64,000 nt of DNA, taken from contig NZ_PQVF01000002.1 in assembly GCF_002920915.1 (NCBI RefSeq), forward strand, positions 310,375 to 374,374, written 5' to 3'. The stretch is from Solitalea longa. GTDB taxonomy: Bacteria; Bacteroidota; Bacteroidia; Sphingobacteriales; Sphingobacteriaceae. A model generated the notes under the pieces. The model saw only the letters and a list, made by a program, of their open reading frames with translations, had not been told where the DNA came from and did no database searches. Below are positions 3,690 to 61,126 of this stretch, piece after piece; position 1 is the first letter of the stretch; every line of letters begins with the position of its first letter. Position numbers and translations under genes: made by a program.

Positions 3690-3860
3690 TCTGTTGTTAT
3701 AATGTTAAATGACAAGATTGTTATACTGTTAAAGTGATTTATTGCCATATTGCTAAATGGCTTTATTGTTGAATTGCTTTAATCGGAAACAGTTTAACGA
3801 TTTTTTCATTTAACAATATTTCAGTTTAACAATATTTCAATTTAACAGTTTTCCAATCAC
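3690..3860. repeat. Low-complexity AT-rich intergenic repeat
   Basis: The gap between truA and the ABC gene holds degenerate copies of TTTAACAATATTTCA-like units, including two near-perfect adjacent copies around 3810-3841 and several GTTAAA/TTGTTA variants further left. I see no ORF or hairpin of note. Confidence 0.5.
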
Positions 3861-3867
3861 TGTCTTT

Positions 3868-4662
3868 TTATAAGTACAGGTAGGAAATTGTGGTTAAGAA
3901 TAATCCAGCTGCCGGAACTGACTCTCCTGCATTTGAACGGTTTTTACTGTCTAAAATTTCCTGAACGTTGTTGATCGTTAAGTTTCCTTTGCCTACCTCA
4001 AGTAAAGTACCCACAATTGCCCTAACCATGTTGCGAAGAAAACGGTCGGCGGTGATATGAAACACCAAACCTCCTTCTACTTCAATCCATTCTGCCCGGG
4101 TAATCTTACAGTTATTGGTAAAGGTTTGCGTATTGCTTTTGCTGAAACAACTAAAATCAGTGTGTTCCATAATTACCAATGCAGCCTCATTCATTACCAC
4201 CACATTGGGTCTGTTAGTTAACAAATAGGCAGTTTCGAGTTTAAATGGATTTTTTTCGAAATAAACATGATACTCATATGAACGACTGATTGCATCAAAA
4301 CGGGCGTGGGCCTCCGCATCTACTTTTATAAAACGTTTTATAGCGATCTCGTACCCTACCAAAGCATTTACCGCCTTAACTAATCGCTCGTGAGTAATTT
4401 GTAATTTATTTTCACTTTTAGGCTGATTGTCAGTTGTAATTTCAGTTATGGTATCATAATGAGCAAAGAAATTAGTGGCATGGACACCTGTATCCGTCCG
4501 TCCACAGCCAACGGTTTCAATTTCTTCACGCAACACAGTCGACAAAGCCTTATTCAAAACTTCTTGTACACTAATTGCATTAGGCTGAATTTGCCAGCCA
4601 TGAAAATTGGTGCCTTTGTAAGCTAGTTCAACAAAATAGCGTTTTTTTAACTGCTCCTCCAT
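3868..4662 (-). CDS. truA: tRNA pseudouridine(38-40) synthase TruA
   Basis: A 264-residue protein that isomerises uridines 38-40 in the anticodon arm of many tRNAs. The catalytic motif GCGRTDTGVHA lies near residues 53-62, with the nucleophilic aspartate at D57. Further family signatures are the N-terminal YKGTNFHGWQIQ and the C-terminal RFLRNMVRAIVGTL. Length is normal for TruA. It may be co-transcribed with the upstream secreted protein gene (15 bp apart), although the two functions look unrelated. Confidence 0.95.
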   Translation of the reverse strand: MEEQLKKRYFVELAYKGTNFHGWQIQPNAISVQEVLNKALSTVLREEIETVGCGRTDTGVHATNFFAHYDTITEITTDNQPKSENKLQITHERLVKAVNALVGYEIAIKRFIKVDAEAHARFDAISRSYEYHVYFEKNPFKLETAYLLTNRPNVVVMNEAALVIMEHTDFSCFSKSNTQTFTNNCKITRAEWIEVEGGLVFHITADRFLRNMVRAIVGTLLEVGKGNLTINNVQEILDSKNRSNAGESVPAAGLFLTTISYLYL

Positions 4663-4677
4663 CTCCGACGCTCTAAG

Positions 4678-5328
4678 TTAATTATTAGTTGTGGTTGTAT
4701 TACTTAATAAGTACTCCTGTACGAGTTCCTTTATCCCCTTAGCTGTATTCTTAATTTGACCGGTATTTATTTTTTTTAATATTGAAAAGTTATCCCAAAA
4801 ATACCCTACCAAAATCCTAGAAGTCTCCGTTTTATCACCCGAAAAACCAATAGGTATTTTTTTTAATCCAACTTTGTCATTTTCTAAATAAAGCTCCGTA
4901 ACAACAATTCTATTTCCAGGACTTAAATCAACATTAGTTGTTATAAACAGATAACTAACTTTTTCATTTAAAATGAACTTCATCTCCCCTTCCTTAAACT
5001 TAACTGTTGTTTCTTCATTAATTGTTTTTCCTTTAGGTATAAAAATGAAATCCTCCTCATCAGTACCAGCATTTAATACTTTCTTAGAAATATATGTCAT
5101 CGAACTCATACCATCGAAGTAGCCTTTAATTGCACCAGCAGGAAATTCCTGATCTTTATTTTTGCGTATAAGACCAACCTTTATACTTCTTGGCGTTGCC
5201 TCGGAAATATAACCTTCATACTTTACAGAATCAGCATCCAATATATAATCCAATACATAGTCTTGAGCCAACGAACGGTTTATCATTAGACCTAATAACA
5301 CTACAAATAGGGTAGTTTTAAATCTCAT
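4678..5328 (-). CDS. Hypothetical secreted protein
   Basis: A 216-residue protein starting MRFKTTLFVVLLGLMINRSLAQ, a clear signal peptide, so it is exported. I do not recognise the family. The mature part is rich in short beta-like segments and charged residues, has no cysteines or catalytic motifs that I can see, and carries the phrase DSVKYEGYISEATPRSIKVG near its start, common in Bacteroidota secreted proteins that report on material transformations but not diagnostic. It sits 15 bp upstream of truA on the same strand. Confidence 0.75.
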   Translation of the reverse strand: MRFKTTLFVVLLGLMINRSLAQDYVLDYILDADSVKYEGYISEATPRSIKVGLIRKNKDQEFPAGAIKGYFDGMSSMTYISKKVLNAGTDEEDFIFIPKGKTINEETTVKFKEGEMKFILNEKVSYLFITTNVDLSPGNRIVVTELYLENDKVGLKKIPIGFSGDKTETSRILVGYFWDNFSILKKINTGQIKNTAKGIKELVQEYLLSNTTTTNN

Positions 5329-5734
5329 AAATAGAAGTTGTTTTTCCGGCCAAAGATAAACACGAATTTCACGAATTAAACGAATTGCTCCAATTCACTT
5401 TCAATCGCCATAAATAGTGTAGCACTGAACTGTGGCTTAGGAATCAATTTTATGCATAAAAAAGGGTTTAACTTGGGTCCAAGGGCCGTAAGCATGAACT
5501 ATTGGTTACAGCGATTTTTTAATGCTTCTACCATGAGTACTGCAATGATAGACACGAATTAAACAAATTGCTCAAATTCAATTCGAGGGTTGTAAAAAGT
5601 GTAGCGCAACGCATTATTTGATTAATTTCCAACTATGATATTGGAATCAATTTATACATAAAAGAGCCCTTAACAATGGCCAAATGGCTATGGACAATTA
5701 ACTATGGACTATTGACTATCGACTATCGACTACC
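5329..5734. repeat. Noncoding gap with a duplicated ~110-bp block
   Basis: No gene is visible. Two imperfect direct copies can be aligned: block A about 5357-5472 and block B about 5549-5672. Each has ACGAATT..AACGAATTGCTC-like sequence, then an AGTGTAGC segment, then GGAATCAATTTTAT[GA]CATAAAA followed by a run ending in TTAAC. The right edge (5689-5735) has short GACTATCGACTATTGACTAT-type repeats. Confidence 0.55.
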
Positions 5735-5742
5735 TATATTTG
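5735..5742 (+). promoter_or_regulatory. Putative Bacteroidota -7 element (TATATTTG)
   Basis: TATATTTG matches TAnnTTTG exactly. It ends only five bases before the ATG at 5748, so transcription from it would start at or next to the start codon, giving a leaderless mRNA. No convincing -33 box is seen. Confidence 0.45.
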
Positions 5743-5747
5743 GCAGC

Positions 5748-6233
5748 ATGATACAACGCGTTCAATCTATCTATTTAGCTATCGCTTTTATTGCTGCAAC
5801 AGCTTTATTCTTTGTTCCGGTTATTAGTTTTGTCGACATGGACAATGTTGGGCAAGGCAGCATTAAAGAACTAGTAGAGATTAAAACATCAGGAAAATAT
5901 GTAATGTCAATGGCTGGGCCTAGCCAAGTGGAAACTTATATCCCAGGTATTGTTTTAACTATAGTTGTTGCTGCTTTAGCCTTGATCACCATTTTTCAGT
6001 ATAAAAACAGAAAACGACAAATTAGTCTATGCTGGATAAATGCATTTATGGCTTTAGGTCTTTCAGTTTTTATGATGATTAAAGCTCAACCCGAAAGTCT
6101 CGGTCAGGTTTCGGACTGGAAAGCACATATAGGTTCTTATCTTTTCACTGTAATTATTATTGCGCTGATGCTTGCTCTGCGTTCGATAAGGAGAGATGAA
6201 AATCTTGTGCGCTCAGCTGATCGATTAAGATAA
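5748..6233 (+). CDS. DUF4293 family integral membrane protein
   Basis: A 161-residue protein starting MIQRVQSIYLAIAFIAATALFF, the characteristic opening of the DUF4293 family found across Bacteroidota. The reading frame continues upstream to 5676, but that extension translates intergenic repeat sequence and does not fit the family, so the ATG at 5748 is chosen. Four hydrophobic segments are visible (about residues 8-26, 65-85, 95-112 and 125-145). Function is unknown. The gene ends at a 14-bp hairpin. Confidence 0.85.
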   Translation: MIQRVQSIYLAIAFIAATALFFVPVISFVDMDNVGQGSIKELVEIKTSGKYVMSMAGPSQVETYIPGIVLTIVVAALALITIFQYKNRKRQISLCWINAFMALGLSVFMMIKAQPESLGQVSDWKAHIGSYLFTVIIIALMLALRSIRRDENLVRSADRLR

Positions 6234-6263
6234 AGCTACTACGAAATAAAATTTAATTCTGCC

Positions 6264-9665: not shown

Positions 9666-9703
9666 AAAAATGGCCCAATTTTACATTAAATTAGGCCATT
9701 TTT
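9666..9703 (-). terminator. Terminator of the exporter cluster
   Basis: AAAAATGGCC at the left pairs with GGCCATTTTT at the right around an AT-rich interior that also partly pairs. It lies just past the stop codon of the adaptor gene at 9720 and marks the 3' end of the long minus-strand exporter cluster. Confidence 0.8.
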
Positions 9704-9719
9704 AAGAAATTTTTAAAAA

Positions 9720-52073: not shown

Positions 52074-52454
52074 TTATGCGCCAATAACCCCTAAAAGATT
52101 ATCTACCTGGCTGTCCCATATTAATTTGCGTTCACCTTTTTCGTCTTCGGTGGTAAAATCGGTAACGGCGAGGGCAACATCGCCAGTTAGTTCATCTTGT
52201 AATATTTCAAGTTCGAAATAACAGTAGGGTTCGTCGTCTTCCCACTTAAACTTAACTGATTTGTTATCCCGGAGACCCAATAAACGTGCTCGTTGTTGCT
52301 CATTATCCCACTTAAATGTATACATATCATCTCTAACGGTAACATCATCAGCAAACCATTGGGATAAACCATTAGGGGTACTTATGAAATTAAATAAAAT
52401 TTTTGGAGACGAATGTATCTCATATTCAAGGTTGTATTTCTTTTTAGCTCCCAT
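52074..52454 (-). CDS. START/SRPBCC-like domain protein
   Basis: A 126-residue protein (MGAKKKYNLEYEIHSSPKILFNFISTPNGLSQWFADDV) with the single START-like fold typical of AHSA1/SRPBCC proteins: N-terminal strand, helix-helix wedge, and a C-terminal helix. Earlier in-frame codons to 52559 translate promoter-like DNA, so this start is used. No ligand-binding residues can be named. It is upstream of and same-strand as the LPS permease gene (38 bp). Confidence 0.8.
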   Translation of the reverse strand: MGAKKKYNLEYEIHSSPKILFNFISTPNGLSQWFADDVTVRDDMYTFKWDNEQQRARLLGLRDNKSVKFKWEDDEPYCYFELEILQDELTGDVALAVTDFTTEDEKGERKLIWDSQVDNLLGVIGA

Positions 52455-52513
52455 CCAGCACAAAAAATTAAAATTTTCGGTCAATAATGTTTTTAAAGTA
52501 CGTGATTTCCTCT

Positions 52514-52521
52514 TATATTTG
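52514..52521 (+). promoter_or_regulatory. Promoter -7 element of tRNA-Met
   Basis: TATATTTG matches TAnnTTTG exactly, with GTTTTT about 20 bp upstream as the -33 box. It would start a transcript about 48 nt before the tRNA. Confidence 0.55.
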
Positions 52522-52574
52522 CAAACCTTTTCAGAAAAGGGGTATCGATAAAGATACAAATAAAAACCATAATT

Positions 52575-52648
52575 GGCGGGGTAGCTCAGATGGTTAGAGC
52601 GCAGGATTCATAACCCTGAGGTCACGGGTTCAACTCCCGTCTCCGCTA
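52575..52648 (+). tRNA. tRNA-Met (anticodon CAT)
   Basis: A complete cloverleaf of 74 nt without encoded CCA: acceptor GGCGGGG/CTCCGCT with two G-U pairs, D arm GCTC...GAGC, anticodon loop TTCATAA and T arm ACGGG-TTCAACT-CCCGT. Anticodon CAT could be Met or lysidine-modified Ile2; elongator Met is more likely. It is the apparent integration target for the DNA on its right. Confidence 0.93.
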
Positions 52649-52657
52649 CGAAAGATA

Positions 52658-52690
52658 AAGGCTTTTAGAGAAATCTAAAAGCCTTTTTTG
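52658..52690 (+). terminator. tRNA-Met terminator (repeat unit copy 1)
   Basis: AAAGGCTTTTAGA and TCTAAAAGCCTTT form a 13-bp stem around GAAA, then a T-run. The same hairpin recurs at 53530, in part at 60338 and at 61083. Confidence 0.9.
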
Positions 52691-52698
52691 GTTTTTAT

Positions 52699-52725
52699 AT
52701 GTCCCGTCATGAAACAAGTTGACAC
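52699..52725. mobile_element. IS-end-like scar 1
   Basis: ATGTCCCGTCATGAAACA... resembles the termini of IS3/IS481-type elements, and its 27 bases match 52916-52942 at 18 positions in the same orientation. It may mark the remains of an excised or decayed element. Confidence 0.4.
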
Positions 52726-52850
52726 CCAAGTTGACTCATTATGAACTACAAAACAAGAACATCTTAAGGCAGAATGAAATTTTGGAGAATAACATCACCT
52801 ACCTCGATCTTATTAAACAGCAGTACTCATTCGCTATACATACGGCGGTG

Positions 52851-52912
52851 ACTAGACGCATACTCGACGTATACTAGACGCATACTAGACGTATACTAGA
52901 CGTATACTAGAC
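52851..52912. repeat. 11-bp tandem repeat array
   Basis: Five full units of ACTAGACG[CT]AT plus seven bases (consensus ACTAGACGTAT; unit 2 reads ACTCGACGTAT). The array ends 3 bp before the second IS-end-like scar. Confidence 0.9.
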
Positions 52913-52915
52913 AGC

Positions 52916-52942
52916 ATGACCCGTCCTGAAATAACTATACAG
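52916..52942. mobile_element. IS-end-like scar 2
   Basis: ATGACCCGTCCTGAAATA..., direct-repeat partner of 52699-52725 (18 of 27 positions shared by my count). Confidence 0.4.
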
Positions 52943-53449
52943 ATTAGTGAATAAATCCTGGATTAACTATACACTGGATGTTGTTAATCCTAAATGAGCG
53001 ATACTCTATAAATAAGATAAGCATGCATAGGCAATGTGAATGGACATGATGATTGCTTGAACCCAATAAGATCTTTTAAAATTAATGACAATTATCATTA
53101 CTTACTAAAAGCGATTTGGATGAATATCACTTTTATATTAATAAATAAACTCATTCAGTAAAACCATTGAAGGAAGTGTTGGATCATCTGATTTTAACGC
53201 AGGAAGGATATTATTATTTTTATTATTTGTTAGCGTATTATCAATTGTTACCATAAAGAAAATAAAAAAGGAAAAAGTCCATTTTATTTATTACATCCTG
53301 CTAGTTCTATTGATTTTTATAGAATATGCTCTACTAACTTTTACCGTAAACGGTCCTCATGAAACCACTATAACCATAAGAAGAACTAGTGGATTAATGA
53401 AGCAAAAAACATGTAAGTTATCAGCAAACGATTGCAGACAACTCTTTTC

Positions 53450-53523
53450 GAATAAGGAGCTCAGAAAGTTAGAGCACAGGATTTGCCCCCCTGAAATCAG
53501 AGGATCAACTCTATTCTCCGACA
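53450..53523 (+). pseudogene. Degenerate tRNA-Met copy
   Basis: It aligns without gaps to the tRNA at 52575: from GCTCAG through the bases after the 3' end, about 46 of 65 positions agree. D stem GCTC/GAGC and anticodon stem CAGGA/CCCTG survive, but the acceptor and T stems are broken and the anticodon position reads TGC. It is followed by a copy of the same terminator hairpin. Confidence 0.75.
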
Positions 53524-53529
53524 CGAAAA

Positions 53530-53565
53530 TAAAAAGGCTTTTAGAGAAATCTAAAAGCCTTTGTG
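53530..53565 (+). repeat. Terminator hairpin, repeat unit copy 2
   Basis: AAAAAGGCTTTTAGAGAAAT and its partner arm repeat the tRNA terminator almost exactly, ending CCTTTGTGGGTTT in place of CCTTTTTTGG. Confidence 0.9.
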
Positions 53566-53863
53566 GGTTTACAGACTACCAGCTTTTTTTACAGTTGCTT
53601 TTTATTCCGTTTCTGTTTTGTACCCATTGATGCACCAACATGTACACAGATCCTGAGATCTAATCCAAGTAATAATTTTATTCTTCTCATAAAGAAAACT
53701 CTAGATATTTCACACTCGAAATTCTTTCATCTTATAAGTTAAAACTATTAGTTTAGTGTTTTAACAAAAAATAATCTTCCTTTCGAATAAGAATATCCTT
53801 TAAAGTTGTTAGCTAATTAAAAATTTTACCTAATCAAAGACCTAAAAATTCCAAATCACAATC

Positions 53864-54637
53864 ATGAAAAGAATTCTATTAATGGCCGTAATGGCAATTA
53901 CCATGTTTAATGTAGGTTGCAGTAAAGATGATCTTAATCCTGATGGAAAAACCTATTTACTAAAGAAGCTAACAAATAAAGGCGCAAATTATGTGGTGGA
54001 ATATTCTTATGATGATAAAAACAGAGTTACTCTGGTCAATCAAGATGGAGTAGAAGGTAAATACACTTATAAGTTTACTTATGATGCTAATAATAAACTG
54101 ATAAAAGAAGAAACCACATACCCAAACATGGTGCAGCCCTCACCCAACCCCATCGGTACTGATACTTACTTATTTACCTATGCTGAAAACTCCATAACAA
54201 TAAATAATCAAGAAGGAAGCACCGTTGCTACATTATCCCTAAATGACAAAAACCAAGTAATCAGCAGACTACAGAAATCGCTCTTTTCTAGATGGAATGA
54301 AAGTGATCTTACTGAATATGGCTATGATGAAAAAGGAAATATAATATCCAGGAAAATATCGAGGATAATTGATAACACCATTGTCTCGGTAAGGAGCTCG
54401 GAGCAATATCAATATGATGACAAAAACCATCCCTTATCAAAAATAGGAGCCACTTATCTGGATTGGATTTCTGACGACAGCAGAATTAACAATTCGGTTA
54501 AAATTAATAGTGTTAACCCTATTGATGATAGTCGCAATAGTAAAAATTATTATTATGAGTACAATAAGGCTGGCTTTCCAACTAAGATGTCAAATGGAAG
54601 CGGGTTTGAACAAACCTTTGAATACATTGATAAGTAA
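53864..54637 (+). CDS. Lipoprotein with YD/Rhs-like strand repeats (DUF4595-like)
   Basis: A 257-residue lipoprotein: signal peptide and lipobox NVGC (Cys20). The body consists of repeated short strands of the YD type (VEYSYDDKNRVTLVN, YKFTYDANNKLIKEE, YLFTYAENSITINN, YGYDEKGNIISRK, YQYDDKNHPLSK, YYYEYNKAGFPTKM), a pattern found in DUF4595 and other Bacteroidota surface proteins that resemble Rhs repeats. No toxin or enzyme domain follows. Function unknown. Confidence 0.75.
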   Translation: MKRILLMAVMAITMFNVGCSKDDLNPDGKTYLLKKLTNKGANYVVEYSYDDKNRVTLVNQDGVEGKYTYKFTYDANNKLIKEETTYPNMVQPSPNPIGTDTYLFTYAENSITINNQEGSTVATLSLNDKNQVISRLQKSLFSRWNESDLTEYGYDEKGNIISRKISRIIDNTIVSVRSSEQYQYDDKNHPLSKIGATYLDWISDDSRINNSVKINSVNPIDDSRNSKNYYYEYNKAGFPTKMSNGSGFEQTFEYIDK

Positions 54638-54655
54638 TCCGCTATTCTTTTAGGG

Positions 54656-54687
54656 AAACTCCGTAGTTCATAGCTATGGAGTTTTTT
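54656..54687 (+). terminator. Terminator after the lipoprotein gene
   Basis: AACTCCGTAG and CTATGGAGTT form a 10-bp stem with one G-T pair, followed by TTTTT. Confidence 0.85.
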
Positions 54688-55030
54688 CATTTAACTCCCT
54701 TCGTTGCTAACCTGACAAATCCAGCTTTTGCCTTACCCTCATTGGTTGCTTACAGAGGGATAAGCCAAAAACTGATTTTCGGAAAACTCATTCTATTTTC
54801 TTTTATAAAGATGAGAAGATTACTTAATGGCTTATATAATGTGTTACTGGTTCGGAATATATAACTGAACGGGAAATAGGCGTTCCTCATTACGCAGCTA
54901 CCTAAAATTCCGCCAGATTCGTAAAGCTACACTTTACAAGCCCTAATGCTTTTCAGCTTGGAACAATATGTTCCAGGCTTCAATCCCGTCCTATTCACAA
55001 CCCAAAGTCAAAAACACCGCCAGTTCTTCG
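54688..55030. other. Gene-free stretch upstream of the JAB gene
   Basis: No believable gene. Predicted frames at 54676 and 54968 cross repeats and lack family features. GC content rises toward 55090. Confidence 0.4.
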
Positions 55031-55144
55031 TGTTCTTCGAACATATCACTACACCGGCTTATCAGCCTCTTTTGCAGTGACCCTACACTTAACTCGCAGC
55101 GGCGCGTTCTGTCAGTGCTATTAATCAACGCTATCACAAATCAT
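55031..55144. repeat. Left flanking repeat of the JAB gene unit
   Basis: Starts TGTTCTTCGAACATATCAC and continues through GCAGCGGCGCGTTCTGTCAGT to AATCAACGCTATCACAAAT; it aligns with the right copy at 55649-55757 (18 of the first 19 bases identical). The opening itself is a TGTTC-TTC-GAACA palindrome. Confidence 0.7.
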
Positions 55145-55164
55145 CCATTAATCTTATATTTATT

Positions 55165-55629
55165 ATGAAAAAACAAGCTACTACCCATCCGTTAGTTTCA
55201 GAAATCTCATTAAGCTATCATCCTAAAGTAAAGTCATCTGAAATGAAAATGATCCGAACCTCTAAAGATGCTTATGACATCTTTATGGAAAGTTGGGATA
55301 AGGGTTTAATCGAGTTTCTGGAAGAGTTTAAAGTTTTATTATTAAAGCGTAATCAAAGAGTAATTGGACTTTATCCTGTCTCGTTGGGTGGTGTTTCGGG
55401 AACAGTAGTAGATGCTAAAGTAATCTTTGTTGCAGCACTATTATCTCATGCTTCTACTATCATTCTCTGCCATAATCATCCTAGCGGAAATTTACAACCA
55501 AGTGAACCGGACTTAAGAATAACAAAGCAATTGAAAGAGGCTGGAAAGGTATTGAATATCGATGTGTTGGATCATTTGATTGTTTCTAAAGAAGGTTACT
55601 TTAGTTTTGGAGATGAGGGGCTTTTATGA
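55165..55629 (+). CDS. RadC/JAB-domain protein (mobile-element type)
   Basis: A 154-residue protein that consists of the JAB1/MPN metal-binding domain of RadC without its N-terminal helix-hairpin-helix region. The JAMM motif is H103-N-H105-P-S-G-N-L-Q-P-S113-E-P-D116. Short RadC forms such as this are common on plasmids and integrated elements of Bacteroidota; the enzymatic activity, if any, is not settled. It is flanked on both sides by imperfect ~110-bp direct repeats, so it may form a small transposable or shuffled unit. Confidence 0.88.
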   Translation: MKKQATTHPLVSEISLSYHPKVKSSEMKMIRTSKDAYDIFMESWDKGLIEFLEEFKVLLLKRNQRVIGLYPVSLGGVSGTVVDAKVIFVAALLSHASTIILCHNHPSGNLQPSEPDLRITKQLKEAGKVLNIDVLDHLIVSKEGYFSFGDEGLL

Positions 55630-55648
55630 GCTCCTCTTTCCCAGTCTT

Positions 55649-55757
55649 TGTTCTGCGAACATATCACAGAATCGCCCTGCGGGCTTTACTGCTGGATACC
55701 TCCCTCAATTCGCGACAGCTCGCACGTTTTGGCAGTACTAAAAACATCAATCATAAA
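55649..55757. repeat. Right flanking repeat of the JAB gene unit
   Basis: Starts TGTTCTGCGAACATATCAC and ends AACATCAATCATAAAT; imperfect copy of 55031-55144. From 55758 to 56005 the sequence is AT-rich and I see nothing else. Confidence 0.7.
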
Positions 55758-56005
55758 TAAAACTGTATAACTTTTACAATAAACAATTAAAATTCAGCAG
55801 AGTATTAATAAGTAATATTAAGGATTTTTAACCTAAAATTGAAAGTAGTAAATTGCCAAATTGAGAATTCTTCAATAAGGATGATAATCACCCTTGCTCA
55901 GAAGAGAATTAAATCTCAATGCAATCAATATTTTTAAAAAATGATGGATTCAAGGAACTCCATACCAAAAAAGAATTTCAATAATCTACCTATTACTATA
56001 TTATA

Positions 56006-57376
56006 ATGCAAAAGCAATACATTGACCTGATTAAAGGATTAATAACAGAATTTAAAACAATTAACCTTGAAGAACTATTTGCCCTATCCTATCCTGATAG
56101 AACTGATATTGGAAGTATTCAAATTGACAGGTTAAGCATAAGTGAATATATAAATATTAGCAAACGTTTCTTCGAACAACTTGAGGTAGAAATAAACTCA
56201 GATAATGGTTTAATATTGCCATTATATTTTACCTCTCCGGAATTTGGCCAGTCAGATGTTCCATCTCTAATTAGAAATTATTTGGCACACACTAAATCAA
56301 GAAGTTTCTCTTCTGCGGAGACACAATTAGTGGCCTTAGCCCAATATCAACTACAAAATGGGTTTTATGATAAATCAAAGTATAAATCCCACTCTGTTAA
56401 TGCACTTGAAATTAAAAAGAGTACAAACGAGCTTTTATTACAAAAAGAAAACATAAAGCACTTAAGGGAACAGTATGATGCTCTGATTGGAGATTTAAAT
56501 CAACAAAAAAAATCTATTACAGATTTTCAAACTCAAAAACAAGGCGAACTACAGCAGATAGTTAATAATTTAGAAACAACTAATATAAATACACAACAAA
56601 TTCAAAGCCTTTTGACTACAGCATCTCAATCTCAAACAAAAATTAATTCTTTACTTGAGCAGATTGAAAGAGATAAGCAAAAAAGTGAATCAACTTCTGA
56701 TGAAATTGATAAAGTTCTTACAAAAAATAAGACCGAATTTGCAGATGTTTTAAAGAAATTAAATGAGACAGAAACTAATTATTTAGACCTGTACAGTGAA
56801 TTTGAGGGTAAGTTAAACGTTATTGAAAGTAAATTTGATTATTTCAAGGAAAGAAATGAATATCTTGATAATTTGATCGGAAGAGAAGTCGGCGCTTCTC
56901 TTTTTGAAACGTTTAAGCAAAGAAAAATAGAACTTACCAATCCATTGATTTTTTGGAGAGCGGCGGTAGGAGTAATGGGGGCATTAACCTTTGTAGTGAT
57001 ATTAGCAATATTTACAAATATTTTTGGTTGGCTGGGTAAGCCTGATAACGTTTTCCATTGGGAAAATATATTAGTAAATGCTCTTAAATCCTCTCCTTTA
57101 TTTTTTCTATTATACTATACCATCTCCCAATACAATAAAGAAAGAAACTTTCAAGAAGAATACGCTTTTAAATCTGCGGTGGCTCTCACAATAAAAGCTT
57201 ATTCCGATGTTTTGCATGATGATAAAAATAAAGATGAACTAATTCTTAAAGCAGTTTATGGAATATATCGCAGTCCAATTTATGCGAAAATTAGGGCCAC
57301 AAAAGAGGTTAATTCTGCATTGGATATGATTCACGACTTAGTTGGAAAAGGAACTGAACTTTTGACAAAAAAATAA
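56006..57376 (+). CDS. Coiled-coil protein with two membrane helices
   Basis: A 456-residue protein not assigned to a family. Residues 1-130 form an uncharacterised helical region, 135-290 a long coiled coil (heptads such as LREQYDALIGDLNQQKKSITDFQ), 316-340 and 354-375 two hydrophobic helices with a short loop, and 376-456 a helical cytosolic tail. This N-in, C-in layout with a long coiled coil is seen in several membrane-tethered sensors and defence effectors, but that is analogy only. The following gene, 72 bp on, encodes a HEAGH metalloprotease-like protein. Confidence 0.7.
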   Translation: MQKQYIDLIKGLITEFKTINLEELFALSYPDRTDIGSIQIDRLSISEYINISKRFFEQLEVEINSDNGLILPLYFTSPEFGQSDVPSLIRNYLAHTKSRSFSSAETQLVALAQYQLQNGFYDKSKYKSHSVNALEIKKSTNELLLQKENIKHLREQYDALIGDLNQQKKSITDFQTQKQGELQQIVNNLETTNINTQQIQSLLTTASQSQTKINSLLEQIERDKQKSESTSDEIDKVLTKNKTEFADVLKKLNETETNYLDLYSEFEGKLNVIESKFDYFKERNEYLDNLIGREVGASLFETFKQRKIELTNPLIFWRAAVGVMGALTFVVILAIFTNIFGWLGKPDNVFHWENILVNALKSSPLFFLLYYTISQYNKERNFQEEYAFKSAVALTIKAYSDVLHDDKNKDELILKAVYGIYRSPIYAKIRATKEVNSALDMIHDLVGKGTELLTKK

Positions 57377-57448
57377 TACTGATCCAATTACGAATCAGTT
57401 ACGGTTCGAGTCAGATCAAACATTTTCTAATTTATCAATGCAGTTTAA

Positions 57449-57937
57449 ATGGACAAGAATGTAATAATTGCGGCCCATCATGAGGCTGGCCACTCATTAA
57501 TGGCATTTATAGTTGGCTGGTCAATTGATTCTATAGAACTAAATATTGAAAACGACACTTTACTGTTTGGAGTAACTAAATATAACTTTGAAGGAGATGA
57601 AATAGATAGTTTGATAAATCTAAACAGGAGAATTCTTTGTTTAATGGGAGGACCCATCGCACAAGCTTTATATGAAAACAGTTCAATGATAAACATTGAT
57701 ACTTTAGGACCAGATGGTGAAACAATTGACATTCTACTTACAAATTTGACCCTTCAAGAAAAGGAGTATACTATTCAGAGGTCTATAAATTCAACGGCTA
57801 ATTTCCTGAATATGAATACCAACAGAAATGCTAGACACCTAATTGTAGATAGACTAATAAATGATCTTACAATTTCTCAAACAGAATTTCTAGACCTTGT
57901 TAAAGCCTGCAATGTTAGAAGAATGAACTTTAAATAA
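57449..57937 (+). CDS. Stand-alone FtsH-like (M41) metalloprotease domain
   Basis: A 162-residue protein with the zinc motif H11-E-A-G-H15, followed by CLMGGPIAQALY, which aligns with LGGRVAEEL in the FtsH peptidase, and by an aspartate (LGPDGETIDI) at the position of the third zinc ligand. There is no AAA+ ATPase domain and no membrane helix, so it would need a partner for unfolding or would cleave accessible targets. The coiled-coil membrane protein just upstream is a natural candidate partner. Peptidase activity is inferred. Confidence 0.7.
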   Translation: MDKNVIIAAHHEAGHSLMAFIVGWSIDSIELNIENDTLLFGVTKYNFEGDEIDSLINLNRRILCLMGGPIAQALYENSSMINIDTLGPDGETIDILLTNLTLQEKEYTIQRSINSTANFLNMNTNRNARHLIVDRLINDLTISQTEFLDLVKACNVRRMNFK

Positions 57938-58096
57938 TGAACAGCATTAAATTCACTTCATATCATTGAGTTGAAACTCAATTAGAATATAGGAAAAACG
58001 ACATTTATTATAGCCAGCATGATCCAACGAATTGCAGTTGAAACTTAAACATAAAGTGAGGTTTCTGATCTATTCCAATAACTTAATCTGAACAAG

Positions 58097-58855
58097 ATGA
58101 AACAAAACTTTATTCTTTTTTTATTCCTGATTTCCAACGCCGTTAGCGCTCAAACTCCCGTACCCGAAATGATATCGGTACTCGGAGGCAGATTTACTAT
58201 GGGCAGTAATAGTAACGATTTCAAGTTTGACGAAAAATCCACCCCCACCCATACCGTTACAGTAAGCGATTTTAAAATGGCAAAAACCGAAACCACGGTG
58301 GCCCAGTACAGAGCGTTCTGCAAAGCTACCGGTCGTAAAATGCCAGGTTGGGGATTAATGGCGGATGGGAAGTGGGAAAGCGATAACCACCCGATAGTAA
58401 ATGTAAGTTTTGACGAAGCAAATGCCTATTGCAATTGGCTGAGTAAAAAAACAGGTAAAAAATACCGCCTGCCCACTGAAGCCGAATGGGAGTATGCAGC
58501 CCGCGGAGGAAAAAAAAGTAGAGGCTATAAATATAGCGGTGGTGATGACCCGAAAGAAGTAGCTTGGTTCAGCGATACTGGAGGCCTAGACCAGGCTGTT
58601 GGACATAAGCGACCCAATGAGCTGGGATTATATGATATGAGCGGTAATGTTTACGAATGGTGCAATGACTGGTATGGTGACTATACCGCCAAAGCCCAGT
58701 TTAATCCCCGGGGGCCGGCCAGCGGTGTCTACCGTGTGACCCGTGGCGGTGGTTCTATAAATAGCTACGTGGCCTGTCACGTTGCTAACCGCTCCTTTGC
58801 CAAGCCAGACATTCGCTACTTCATTTGTGGTTTCAGGGTGGTGCTTGTACAGTAA
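58097..58855 (+). CDS. Secreted formylglycine-enzyme-fold (SUMF1/FGE-sulfatase) protein
   Basis: A 252-residue protein with a signal peptide (MKQNFILFLFLISNAVSAQ). The fold landmarks are FTMGSNSND, NVSFDEANAYCNWL, LPTEAEWEYAARGG, GNVYEWCNDWYG, RVTRGGGS and CGFRVVLVQ. At the site of the two catalytic cysteines of true formylglycine-generating enzymes (CYRYRC in human SUMF1) this protein has YVACHV, so both appear absent. It is probably a binding or structural member of the family, as in many Bacteroidota. It lacks an adjacent sulfatase. Confidence 0.85.
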   Translation: MKQNFILFLFLISNAVSAQTPVPEMISVLGGRFTMGSNSNDFKFDEKSTPTHTVTVSDFKMAKTETTVAQYRAFCKATGRKMPGWGLMADGKWESDNHPIVNVSFDEANAYCNWLSKKTGKKYRLPTEAEWEYAARGGKKSRGYKYSGGDDPKEVAWFSDTGGLDQAVGHKRPNELGLYDMSGNVYEWCNDWYGDYTAKAQFNPRGPASGVYRVTRGGGSINSYVACHVANRSFAKPDIRYFICGFRVVLVQ

Positions 58856-58920
58856 ACAGGGGGCCTTTCGCAATTTCATATAAGCAGCTCCTTTTAATAA
58901 ATCCATAGTTTATTTATTTT

Positions 58921-59703
58921 ATGTTTAAATTTTACACAATTCCAGATTTAAAAACACTTGAAAATATTATTGGTGAACCTACACTGAAATTTTCATCTGC
59001 TTTCAATTTAAATGATCCTTTTGAACTTAAGTTTAATTTAGTGCTAGATCCTTATGCAGAGGGACAAGAAAATGAATTTTTTAAAGCCCACCCTGGAGGC
59101 ACAATAAAAGACTTTAAAGACTGGCAAGAGTCAGTTGAAAACAATGACGGATTTCTTTGGTATACGGAACAGGTACAGCGGAATTATTTATCAAAATTAA
59201 TCACCCTTTGTTCGTTTACTGAAATAAACACAAACAATCTAATGTGGTCACATTACACAAATAATCACAGAGGCATATGTGTTGAATATTCTGACGCATT
59301 ATTTGACAAATTGAAAAATATTAAAGAGTTCTTAGTATTTGGAAATGTTGAATATTCTGAATTACCTCCGGAGGTTGACAGTTTAGAAGATAGATCATCG
59401 AAAATCAAGAAAATGCTGTTTAATAAACAAGTGGAATGGAAATATGAACGGGAGCACAGGGTTATCTTACAGAGTGACAATGACACTGACTTTATTTCTA
59501 TCGAACCAAATGATATTAAAGCAGTTTACATTGGTTCTAAAGCAACCGAGGATATTACAAATAAAGCAATGGAGATTTGCCAATATAATAATTTTGACTG
59601 TTTTTATGGCATTTCATTGGGTAAAACATATGAGGTACAATTCAAAAAACATAAAGAAGGTACTTTTCATATGAGAACTTTTTGGAGTGAATTAAAGGAA
59701 TAA
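58921..59703 (+). CDS. DUF2971 family protein
   Basis: A 260-residue protein with the DUF2971 signatures: LNDPFELKFN near residue 30, an SHYTNNHRGICVEYSD block near 110-125 and EWKYEREHRVI near 172-182. Family members occur in accessory regions and near phage-defence genes, but no activity is established. No membrane segment or signal peptide. It is preceded by an unrelated fold gene and followed by a nested hairpin. Confidence 0.85.
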   Translation: MFKFYTIPDLKTLENIIGEPTLKFSSAFNLNDPFELKFNLVLDPYAEGQENEFFKAHPGGTIKDFKDWQESVENNDGFLWYTEQVQRNYLSKLITLCSFTEINTNNLMWSHYTNNHRGICVEYSDALFDKLKNIKEFLVFGNVEYSELPPEVDSLEDRSSKIKKMLFNKQVEWKYEREHRVILQSDNDTDFISIEPNDIKAVYIGSKATEDITNKAMEICQYNNFDCFYGISLGKTYEVQFKKHKEGTFHMRTFWSELKE

Positions 59704-59782
59704 TTTTTTAGCCGAATAAATAAGCTTCTAGGAAGAAAGGAAATTAAACTTTAGGTTGTAAAAAGGAACAATTTTTCTATTC

Positions 59783-59837
59783 GAGACACCTTTTCATTCA
59801 GGGGTATAAAAGATACCTTTTTAAGAAAAAGTGTCTC
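59783..59837. terminator. Nested inverted repeat, possible bidirectional terminator
   Basis: GAGACACCTTTT (59783-59794) and AAAAAGTGTCTC (59826-59837) form a 12-bp stem with one mismatch; inside it GGTAT/ATACC (59803-59817) forms a second hairpin. It lies between convergent genes. Confidence 0.6.
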
Positions 59838-59906
59838 AACATTTATTATCAAAATTGTACTTAAAGGGTTTTCCTCATTCCAGTTTTACAAATTTATTAC
59901 AGACAC

Positions 59907-60335
59907 TTATCTTAGAACTTGCCCACCTGCTACAATATTTTTATTTCTTAATTCAGCCTCCGAACTGAAGGTTGAAACAACAAATGAAATTTTGAAGTTC
60001 TCCAGAAAAATCAACCCTAATGTGAGTTGACCAAAAGTAAAGTTAGACTTTTCTGTGCCTAAATTTTCTTGAAACACTTCAGTTCCATATATTTTGCTTG
60101 CACTGAGATTAAAAAAAAATCTCAATGAGTTATTACTTGTTGCTGCATCTGCATAAAAGTCGAGACCAAAAGACCCTCTTCCAGCCCATTTTTCGGTGTT
60201 TGTACCAAATGCAGGCAAGTCAGCTGCCCCTTTAGTTATTAAACGAGAAATAAGATTATACTGATTATTGGAACTATGCGCATACATTAGAGGATATTCA
60301 ATATTTAATACAGTATTTCCACCATAAGCTATCAA
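59907..60335 (-). pseudogene. C-terminal remnant of an outer-membrane protein gene
   Basis: A 142-codon open frame on the minus strand whose product has short amphipathic strands typical of barrel proteins (FGQLTLGLIFLENFKISFVVS). There is no start codon of its own beyond a TTG, no signal peptide, and the 5' side ends abruptly at a half-copy of the tRNA terminator repeat (60338-60357). It looks like the 3' part of a gene cut off by recombination at that repeat. Confidence 0.6.
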
Positions 60336-60337
60336 CC

Positions 60338-60357
60338 TCTAAAAGCCTTTTTTGGTT
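60338..60357. repeat. Half terminator, repeat unit copy 3
   Basis: TCTAAAAGCCTTTTTTGGTT matches the right half of the tRNA-Met terminator (52674-52693) base for base; the left arm of the hairpin is missing. From 60358 to 60552 I see no feature. Confidence 0.85.
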
Positions 60358-60552
60358 TATAACACATTCAGTAGCAAACCCGATTGGGGCTTTCGTATTT
60401 AACAGCATACTCATTTACCAGCAGTTCAAACTAAATCCCGATCCATTAAAACAATTGACCCAATCGTAGTTTAAGCAGAGCTAGTCAATTATTTTTTATA
60501 TTGCTATGCGTTTTTTGACATAGATTCAACTAGTAAAATAAATTCCGGCAAA

Positions 60553-61080
60553 ATGAAAAAGACATCATTAATAGTTTTGGTTATTGCAGCCTCTTTTCTT
60601 TCAGGTTTTGCATTTAAGACCATCATTACAAAGCCAGCAAACCATTCTGCTAAACTGAAAAAGGTAACCGGCATTGGTGGTATCTTTTTTAAATGTAAGG
60701 ATCCAAAAAAGATGAGAGATTGGTATGAAACTAATCTGGGGCTAAGCGTCAACCAATACGGGTCAGTTTTTGAATGGTATCAAGGTGCCGATTCTACCAA
60801 AAAAGGATTTTCACAATGGAGTCCGTTCAATGAAAAAACAACCTATTTTGAACCTTCCACAAAGGACTTTATGATAAATTATAGGGTTGAAAACTTAAAA
60901 GCGCTGGTTGCAGAATTGAAAACCAATAATGTTACGATACTCGATACCATCGCAACTTACGATTATGGTAAATTCATCCATATTCTTGATGCCGAAGGAA
61001 ACAAAGTAGAACTATGGGAACCCAACGACATTGAATATGAAAAACTGGGCAAACAACTGGGAGCAAAGACAACTAAATAG
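60553..61080 (+). CDS. Exported VOC-superfamily (glyoxalase/bleomycin-resistance fold) protein
   Basis: A 175-residue protein with an N-terminal hydrophobic signal or anchor (MKKTSLIVLVIAASFLSGFAF), then one VOC domain: GIGGIFFKCKDPKKMRDWYETNLGL near residue 40, a central beta hairpin and the terminal FIHILDAEGNKVELWEPND. Metal-ligand positions (Glu in VELWEP and an early Gly/His pair) are only partly visible, and the reaction is unknown. Most relatives are cytosolic, so the exported N-terminus is unusual. Confidence 0.8.
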   Translation: MKKTSLIVLVIAASFLSGFAFKTIITKPANHSAKLKKVTGIGGIFFKCKDPKKMRDWYETNLGLSVNQYGSVFEWYQGADSTKKGFSQWSPFNEKTTYFEPSTKDFMINYRVENLKALVAELKTNNVTILDTIATYDYGKFIHILDAEGNKVELWEPNDIEYEKLGKQLGAKTTK

Positions 61081-61082
61081 TA

Positions 61083-61126
61083 CTACCAAAAGATAAAGGC
61101 TTTTAGATTTCTCTAAAAGCCTTTTT
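61083..61126 (+). repeat. Terminator hairpin, repeat unit copy 4 (right boundary of the island)
   Basis: CTACCAAAAGATAAAGGC and the following hairpin repeat the bases after the tRNA (CTACGAAAGATAAAGGC...). It begins 3 bp after the VOC stop codon and serves as its terminator. The last copy of the series, it marks the likely right end of the accretion region. Confidence 0.85.

Follow-up and report, generated by a model that had tools for sequence, protein, structure and literature searches.

Displaced copies of a tRNA-Met gene and its terminator in Solitalea longa as probable remains of serial integration at one attachment site

The stretch of DNA analyzed here, referred to as the window, comprises 64,000 nucleotides of Solitalea longa (positions 310375 to 374374 of NZ_PQVF01000002.1, our contig C12, in a genome of 4.5176 Mb, G000), and its subject is a tRNA-Met gene behind which the tRNA and terminator sequence recurs. 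tRNA-Met(CAT), the candidate attachment (att) site, lies at 52575..52649 on the plus strand (ARAGORN; Rfam tRNA, 65.9 bits) and was the only tRNA detected by ARAGORN and Rfam within the window. Beside it, at 52074..52559 on the minus strand, is a gene whose product we take from its sequence type to be a START/AHSA1-like protein. This gene belongs to the conserved left flank, and it occupies the same position (89 to 96%) in the three further Solitalea genomes that formed our comparison set, S. agri (G001), G002, and G003; the G, C, and L numbers used throughout are our handles for genomes, contigs, and loci.

A 120-nt query consisting of tRNA-Met and its terminator was compared by BLAST with the S. 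longa genome and its relatives. The query gave seven match rows in S. longa, every one on contig C12. The first row is the gene with its own terminator (52575-52694, 100%), whose hairpin occupies 52657..52688 (plus strand). A degenerate copy follows at 53458-53570 (80%, query positions 9 to 120, E = 2e-21); its nearly full-length tRNA part (53458..53520, plus strand, tRNA positions 9 to 71) precedes a second hairpin at 53531..53562 (plus strand), and its 5' half, its 3' half, and the whole pseudo-tRNA each outscored all of 1000 dinucleotide shuffles. Upstream of a glyoxalase-type gene, as in the third S. agri copy, lies half a terminator (60338..60358, plus strand), a match of 21 nt that is exact and, taken alone, weak (E = 9e-4). 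The fourth copy (hairpin at 61089..61126, plus strand, located by the hairpin search and by reading the sequence) is a terminator only, with an inverted loop and no clear tRNA part; this copy, cited below as 61095, lies 14 nt past the glyoxalase stop codon. This hairpin accounts for two rows, one on each strand, because it is a palindrome, and the second strand of the 53531 hairpin gives another. A further copy, made of the last tRNA bases and the hairpin, lies beyond the window at the equivalent of 74029-74078 (82%, query positions 66 to 114, E = 3e-6). The displaced fragments share one orientation, and where a preliminary description of this locus had counted four copies, there are five when the half copy and that at 74029 are included; the three that it had placed behind the tRNA within the window (now 53531, 60338, and 61095) are real, and the shuffles bear out that the first of these is attached to a degenerate tRNA.

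We then searched whole genomes for the complete hairpin with up to three mismatches. S. longa has it in four places, C12:363031, 363907, 371469, and 384421, which together span 21.4 kb, and the reversed pattern used as a control had no match there. A hand calculation puts at about 1e-6 the chance that the other three hairpins, if randomly placed, would all fall this close (21.4 kb) to the tRNA copy. In this genome, therefore, the hairpin does not act as a terminator of general use. All three places in S. agri lie within 5 kb of its tRNA-Met. G002 has three, two of them 64 to 68 kb behind tRNA-Met and one 2.3 Mb away, and G003 has five, two at 6 and 18 kb behind tRNA-Met and three at 3.40 to 3.44 Mb. 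The worry, raised in the preliminary description, that the hairpin might be common at unrelated terminators is thus allayed for S. longa and S. agri and stands for the three distant places in G003 and the one in G002. Of the three distant G003 hairpins (L043:7521-7550 and 9690-9719; C1:3439521), two were read, and neither carries tRNA sequence. Weak Rfam matches at the terminators (trpB, STnc400, and others) fell far below gathering scores and were taken as chance.

Directly behind the first terminator lies a segment that we call arm A (52690..52850, plus strand). Its only long matches, at C60:181915 and 185163 of S. agri, sit behind displaced tRNA copies 2 and 3 of that species, and two short matches of 31 to 41 nt occur in the same genome. 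From 52851 to 53004 (plus strand) it is followed by a dispersed repeat that opens with 11-bp tandem units, has many matches in S. longa and S. agri, and is not att specific; in the S. longa genome, the repeat is spread over many contigs and sits at the start of several. The idea that arm A is merely an insertion sequence was rejected, as the first 160 nt have long matches only behind att copies and the remainder is the dispersed repeat; consequently, only the first part was retained as att linked.

Comparison of the four Solitalea loci (proteins at E = 1e-6) revealed a common left flank, with three proteins at 84 to 96% between the window and each relative and a large fourth at 70 to 86% over the part fetched. 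Downstream of tRNA-Met, all four genomes differ in copy number and cargo. Beyond tRNA-Met itself, tRNA copies were found at 181808 and 185095 in S. agri, at 206815, 202587, and 193557 in G002, and at 1155939 in G003; the copy at 193557 was called as a whole tRNA-Met, and that at 181808 matches letter for letter only from roughly position 28 onward, with a degenerate arm as its 5' part. None of the window proteins between the tRNA and the glyoxalase gene has a counterpart in the same S. agri stretch. The glyoxalase-type gene itself (60553..61080, plus strand; protein comparison and Pfam) is 90% identical to that of S. agri and is preceded by an att fragment in both species, at 60338 in the window and as the 185095 copy in S. 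agri. As far as these sequences tell, this suggests an old frame common to both species whose intervals have been newly filled. Hairpin copy 4 is absent behind the S. agri glyoxalase gene.

The relationship between the two species is closest at the tRNA. S. agri carries a 1.6-kb tRNA-proximal remnant between tRNA-Met and the 181808 copy, which runs into arm A. Arm A directly adjoins the tRNA in the window (52584-53004 against L032:7808-8272, 81%). The window is therefore an empty site for the S. agri 1.6-kb piece, either by absence or by clean loss. The S. agri remnant has an identical 21-nt double arm site at each end (C60:180357 and 181739, no mismatch) and a 113-bp direct repeat (93%); it retains both arm sites and both tRNA copies without an intact integrase. 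The comparison of tRNA-Met loci proposed in the preliminary description accordingly found copies and intervening genes that are not all held in common and an empty site relative to S. agri, and these differences in copy number, cargo, and occupancy favor its suggestion of repeated integration at one attachment site.

G002 adds further pieces. Behind its 202587 copy lie a RadC relative, split into two pieces in different frames, and Lamassu LmuA and LmuB genes, and before the 193557 copy lie an integrase C terminus and an arm site. A second place in this genome (L041:8501-9502; C1:2592628-2592822) combines a terminator, an arm site, a tRNA 3' fragment with upstream sequence in common with the 206815 fragment, and part of an integrase (a short 129-aa frame) from outside the remnant integrase family described below. 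A large serine recombinase also ends at the G002 tRNA-Met, followed by a TraG-type protein and a series of further genes (L035:14283-15809 and 3777-6260; C1:258777-270809); this stretch is probably an integrative and conjugative element (ICE) at the same tRNA that uses another recombinase class. PADLOC searches of cargo gave no match for the four S. agri proteins searched or for three of the four from G003, the fourth having a single weak match. A search of titles and abstract openings found no Solitalea literature on this locus.

On the right, where the contig was read to its end, the variable region extends further than had been thought. The genes that follow the last window copy, previously described as core-like, form a cluster from 61257 onward that is also present in S. 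agri (31 to 61%) and G002 (23 to 37%) and recurs, partly and inverted, in G003 (64 to 74%); it precedes the further hairpin copy at 74029 and is not core flank. The block collinear with S. agri begins only at the equivalent of 93057, with 13 genes at 88 to 97% and then two at 67 and 83%, and was not found in the fetched G002 and G003 stretches. Just ahead of it, at the equivalent of 90486, is a gene whose S. agri counterpart (98% identity) lies 29 kb past the start of the block in that species. We place the right edge of the variable region at 93057.

In S. agri and G003, the N terminus of a tyrosine integrase lies directly behind the tRNA-Met terminator, about 65 to 100 residues long and then broken, and G002 has a C-terminal piece. 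The window holds a scar at 53597..53664 (plus strand) that aligns with the integrase leaders of S. agri and G003 and comprises an ATG at 53640, seven codons (MYTDPEI), and a stop at 53661-53663. The proteins of intact relatives open with MYTDP (L099), MYTEP (L062), MYTKP (L057), and MFTEL (L054). The scar scored above all 1000 dinucleotide shuffles against both leaders. Arm A, used as a control, was not significant, with 297 of 1000 shuffles reaching its score. These alignments point to an integrase formerly present at the window site. The earlier statement that no integrase is visible must accordingly give way to a decayed leader and start here and longer N-terminal remnants in S. agri and G003. 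Nor was the suggestion of an integrase supplied elsewhere in the genome borne out: 12 tyrosine recombinase matches (PF00589) were found in S. longa, none of the remnant family, for which two queries at E = 1e-3 returned nothing. A recombinase of another family acting on the window site is possible.

The first 65 residues of the integrase matched 31 of 201 Sphingobacteriaceae genomes. Among the 30 matches listed, at least five have a whole tRNA-Met by the integrase start (L053, L055, L056, L057, and L061) and three have its 5' part there (L054, L059, and L071). Only 6 of 50,697 phage records matched the integrase, at about 24% over half its length; viral contigs gave one weak relative (33%, 60 residues) from six stretches, which lends no support to a phage origin.

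Intact integrases lie behind tRNA-Met in G095, G097, G117, G123, G139, and G175, and intact elements occupy the same site in other genera. In G095, 11.1 kb separate the whole tRNA-Met from a displaced copy of its positions 30 to 75 (100%) and contain a 370-aa integrase, a RadC-like gene, and a GmrSD-type gene. In G117, 15.2 kb lie between a 5' part (positions 1 to 42) and the whole tRNA-Met, with a direct repeat of 188 bp (99%) that takes in the region upstream of the tRNA; this element contains a 376-aa integrase and a reverse transcriptase gene of the UG5-nitrilase defense type and, by tblastn, no RadC relative. Both spanned elements have tRNA parts duplicated at both ends and a defense-type gene between them. 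Their layouts indicate one integrase family with two designs, one having the whole tRNA next to the integrase and the other having it at the opposite end. A START gene lies within 1.3 kb in all six fetched loci that combine the integrase with a whole or 5'-part tRNA-Met (L091-L093, L096, L097, and L099); the seventh integrase fetched (L098) lacks a START gene within its 20 kb, and its tRNA match reaches only 73%. Mucilaginibacter corticis shows the G117-like pattern of a 5' part and a whole tRNA, with a 51-bp repeat and no integrase of the remnant family in 20 kb, and Hufsiella has a single whole tRNA-Met there, again with no such integrase in 20 kb.

Starting from the START gene, 56 of 61 genomes searched gave a match. 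Among the 30 START loci listed, 26 adjoin a whole tRNA-Met, two a partial one, and two none, and a remnant-family integrase lies in the 1.5-kb flank of three (S. agri, G003, and G008). At one contig end, three partial tRNA-Met copies with 90-bp spacing stand beside the START gene (L124:2011-2238). Tentatively, and with considerable doubt, the START/tRNA-Met site might serve throughout the family as a place where small elements with one type of integrase are exchanged, and the Solitalea arrays would be the remains of such elements. Some elements would carry a RadC-like gene and anti-phage cargo; they would follow either a 3'-half design, with the tRNA rebuilt beside the integrase (G095), or a design with upstream sequence and the 5' half, with the tRNA rebuilt at the far end (G117), and newly arriving elements could mobilize derivatives that lack an integrase but keep both arm sites. 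The PADLOC blanks for S. agri and G003 cargo and the lack of a RadC relative in G117 count against this broader proposal.

Between the copies, the window carries cargo on the plus strand. An RHS-repeat protein gene (53864..54637, PF05593) is followed by a RadC-like JAB gene (55165..55629, PF04002, E = 1.5e-36), either cargo or an element gene, whose relatives by tblastn lie in the G095 element and behind the G002 att copy at 202587; direct repeats flanking it were considered and dropped, just 18 of 19 nt being alike on either side. A 456-aa protein (56006..57376) has no Pfam match and a weak, partial PADLOC match to Lamassu LmuB (E = 2.7e-5, residues 123 to 274). A 162-aa protein (57449..57937), without a Pfam or PADLOC match, contains an HEAGH motif, from which we presume it to be peptidase-like. 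It is followed by an FGE-sulfatase domain protein (58097..58855, PF03781, E = 3.8e-56) and a DUF2971 protein (58921..59703; Pfam) resembling the candidate defense family PDC-S31 (PADLOC, E = 9.8e-35). The eight window proteins searched between the tRNA and 61126 include no conjugation genes by Pfam and no phage structural genes by Pfam, PHROGs not having been searched.

Upstream of the glyoxalase gene, window positions 60379-61081 correspond to L032:13345-14040 of S. agri (84%). There, a terminator (60379..60405, plus strand, by alignment to L032) trails a tRNA-like RNA gene that is missing in the window; near 60379-60405 only this trailing terminator is left. The RNA, 106 to 117 nt long, has a tRNA-type acceptor and T arm, a very long variable arm, a D arm that we take to be Leu-like, and a nearly invariant loop (UUGUCUC or UCGUCUC). 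It occurs at L032:11799-13325 (S. agri C60:185799-187325) and in S. longa at C33:104505-105218, C1:460189, and C2:65662. Matches at E = 1e-3, some of them partial and several in tandem arrays, were found in 82 of 121 family genomes, and paired changes in the acceptor, T stem, and variable arm were seen by eye among 44 distinct copies. ARAGORN called it in none of four loci, Rfam called one copy a tRNA (35.7 bits), and single-sequence folds did not exceed shuffles in stability (z = -0.4 and -0.9). A literature search on this RNA found nothing.

We consider it very probable that the array arose by serial insertion of tyrosine integrase elements into tRNA-Met, followed by decay, leaving a tDNA island array. 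The START-adjacent tRNA-Met would be the attachment site, with the integrase recombining within the tRNA, the anticodon region being the likeliest place; every insertion would leave an intact tRNA at one end and push the old tRNA end and its terminator away. Several elements would have entered in succession in Solitalea, and those in S. longa would have shed their integrases and most of their genes, so that tRNA and terminator fragments remain with unlike cargo between them. What the sequences show directly is the common orientation of the displaced fragments, the unlike cargo of relatives, the empty site relative to S. agri, the integrase remnants behind tRNA-Met in relatives, and the intact elements of other genera; we infer the order of events, the exact crossover base, and a common route for the half and terminator-only copies, and likewise each window copy would represent a separate integration.

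Several observations weigh against this reconstruction. No arm site was found in the S. longa region at up to four mismatches, and the integrase scar codes for just seven residues. Other listed integrase relatives lie near tRNA-Lys, tRNA-Phe, or other tRNAs, or have none found nearby; thus, the family is not bound to tRNA-Met. The tRNA positions at which BLAST matches begin are scattered: 9 and 66 in S. longa, 10 and 50 in S. agri, 53 in G003, and 38, 59, and 4 in G002 (206815, 202587, and 193557), with 38 and 71 at its second locus. A clean fragment start, at position 30, was found only in G095. Decay and tRNA-like 5' arms may explain this scatter. The 53458 copy is nearly full length, so that a simple 3'-half insertion does not account for it; an attP resembling a tRNA, or two events, would be needed. 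Weakest as evidence are the half and terminator-only copies, the 60338 copy being just 21 nt long and the 61095 copy lacking a clear tRNA part and having its loop inverted, and both could be by-products of later rearrangement. The hairpins far from tRNA-Met, three in G003 and one in G002, have to be set beside them.

The distant hairpins are what one would expect if the hairpin were a common or mobile terminator of the genus and the 60338 and 61095 copies had nothing to do with the tRNA, a partial alternative that would leave the other copies untouched. In addition, the 61095 copy stands, with its loop inverted, as the terminator of the glyoxalase gene. However, all four whole hairpins of S. 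longa and all three of S. agri are in the tRNA-Met region, the plus-strand bases on either side of the 61095 copy agree with the tRNA terminator, and homology with S. agri breaks between the glyoxalase stop codon and this hairpin, all of which leaves this alternative doubtful. Tandem duplication of the tRNA and terminator by general recombination or slippage, with subsequent decay and no site-specific integration, would accommodate the nearly full-length pseudo-tRNA and the scattered fragment starts, and tandem duplication has occurred nearby, S. agri having three copies, about 705 bp apart, of tRNA-like RNA and glyoxalase pieces. We nevertheless regard it as very improbable: what lies between the tRNA copies is not duplicated but unrelated DNA, the copies adjoin integrase remnants (and, in S. 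agri, paired arm sites), and the same tRNA is used by intact integrase elements whose two ends carry matching repeats. A third possibility is that the segments are still mobile, with an integrase supplied in trans, like cis-mobilizable elements (CIMEs). The S. agri 1.6-kb remnant, with both arm sites and both tRNA copies and no intact integrase, has the form that this would require, but the lack of any arm site at up to four mismatches in the S. longa region and of any match to the remnant integrase family in its genome makes continuing mobility very improbable there.

Serial insertion and decay would place the window among known arrangements. The Islander account describes islands that interrupt a tRNA gene and regenerate it, with a fragment of the old gene left displaced; in its Table 1, 2083 of 3919 islands have an anticodon-centered attP, and it includes 125 tandems of at least two islands, four of at least three, and a minority of 5' fragments (159 of 3919) (PMC4383910). 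The window resembles these islands in its whole tRNA with displaced fragments and in its array of several copies, and the Islander filters, as described there, test for an integrase gene (PMC4383910), so that a region with a seven-residue scar would presumably be dropped. Intact tRNA and displaced fragments of the same orientation are present, and the site is empty or differently filled in relatives; of a cognate integrase gene in the island, the window keeps the start scar only. Accretion of ICEs or integrative and mobilizable elements with CIMEs has been described as integration, decay to an att-bearing element without an integrase, and renewed integration at a common site (PMC5704250), the same three steps that are proposed here. 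In contrast to that model, no transfer genes were found among the window proteins searched, and of the attL and attR expected of a CIME, arm sites and repeats are recognizable in the S. agri remnant, whereas no arm sites were found in the window. We take Chryseobacterium to belong to the same phylum as Solitalea. ICECleSHZ29 integrates in that genus at tRNA-Met-CAT (PMC12561888), the same target as at the window site, whereas the clearest repeat in our set (G095) runs from position 30 and the spanned elements measure 11 to 15 kb. tRNA-dependent lysogeny likewise involves a tyrosine integrase and an attB overlapping a tRNA gene, but there, according to the report, the tRNA is not rebuilt and the phage brings its own (PMC10865867), whereas in the present elements one of the two ends has a whole tRNA. 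The window adds one member to the known tDNA island arrays and is no new kind.

The locus offers a comparative example, within the Bacteroidota, of one tRNA gene collecting and eroding mobile elements. The pairing of a START gene with tRNA-Met provides a conserved place in which to look for further small integrative elements of Sphingobacteriaceae. If remnants that lack an integrase and retain intact arm sites, like that of S. agri, move in trans, accretion would be testable in this group.

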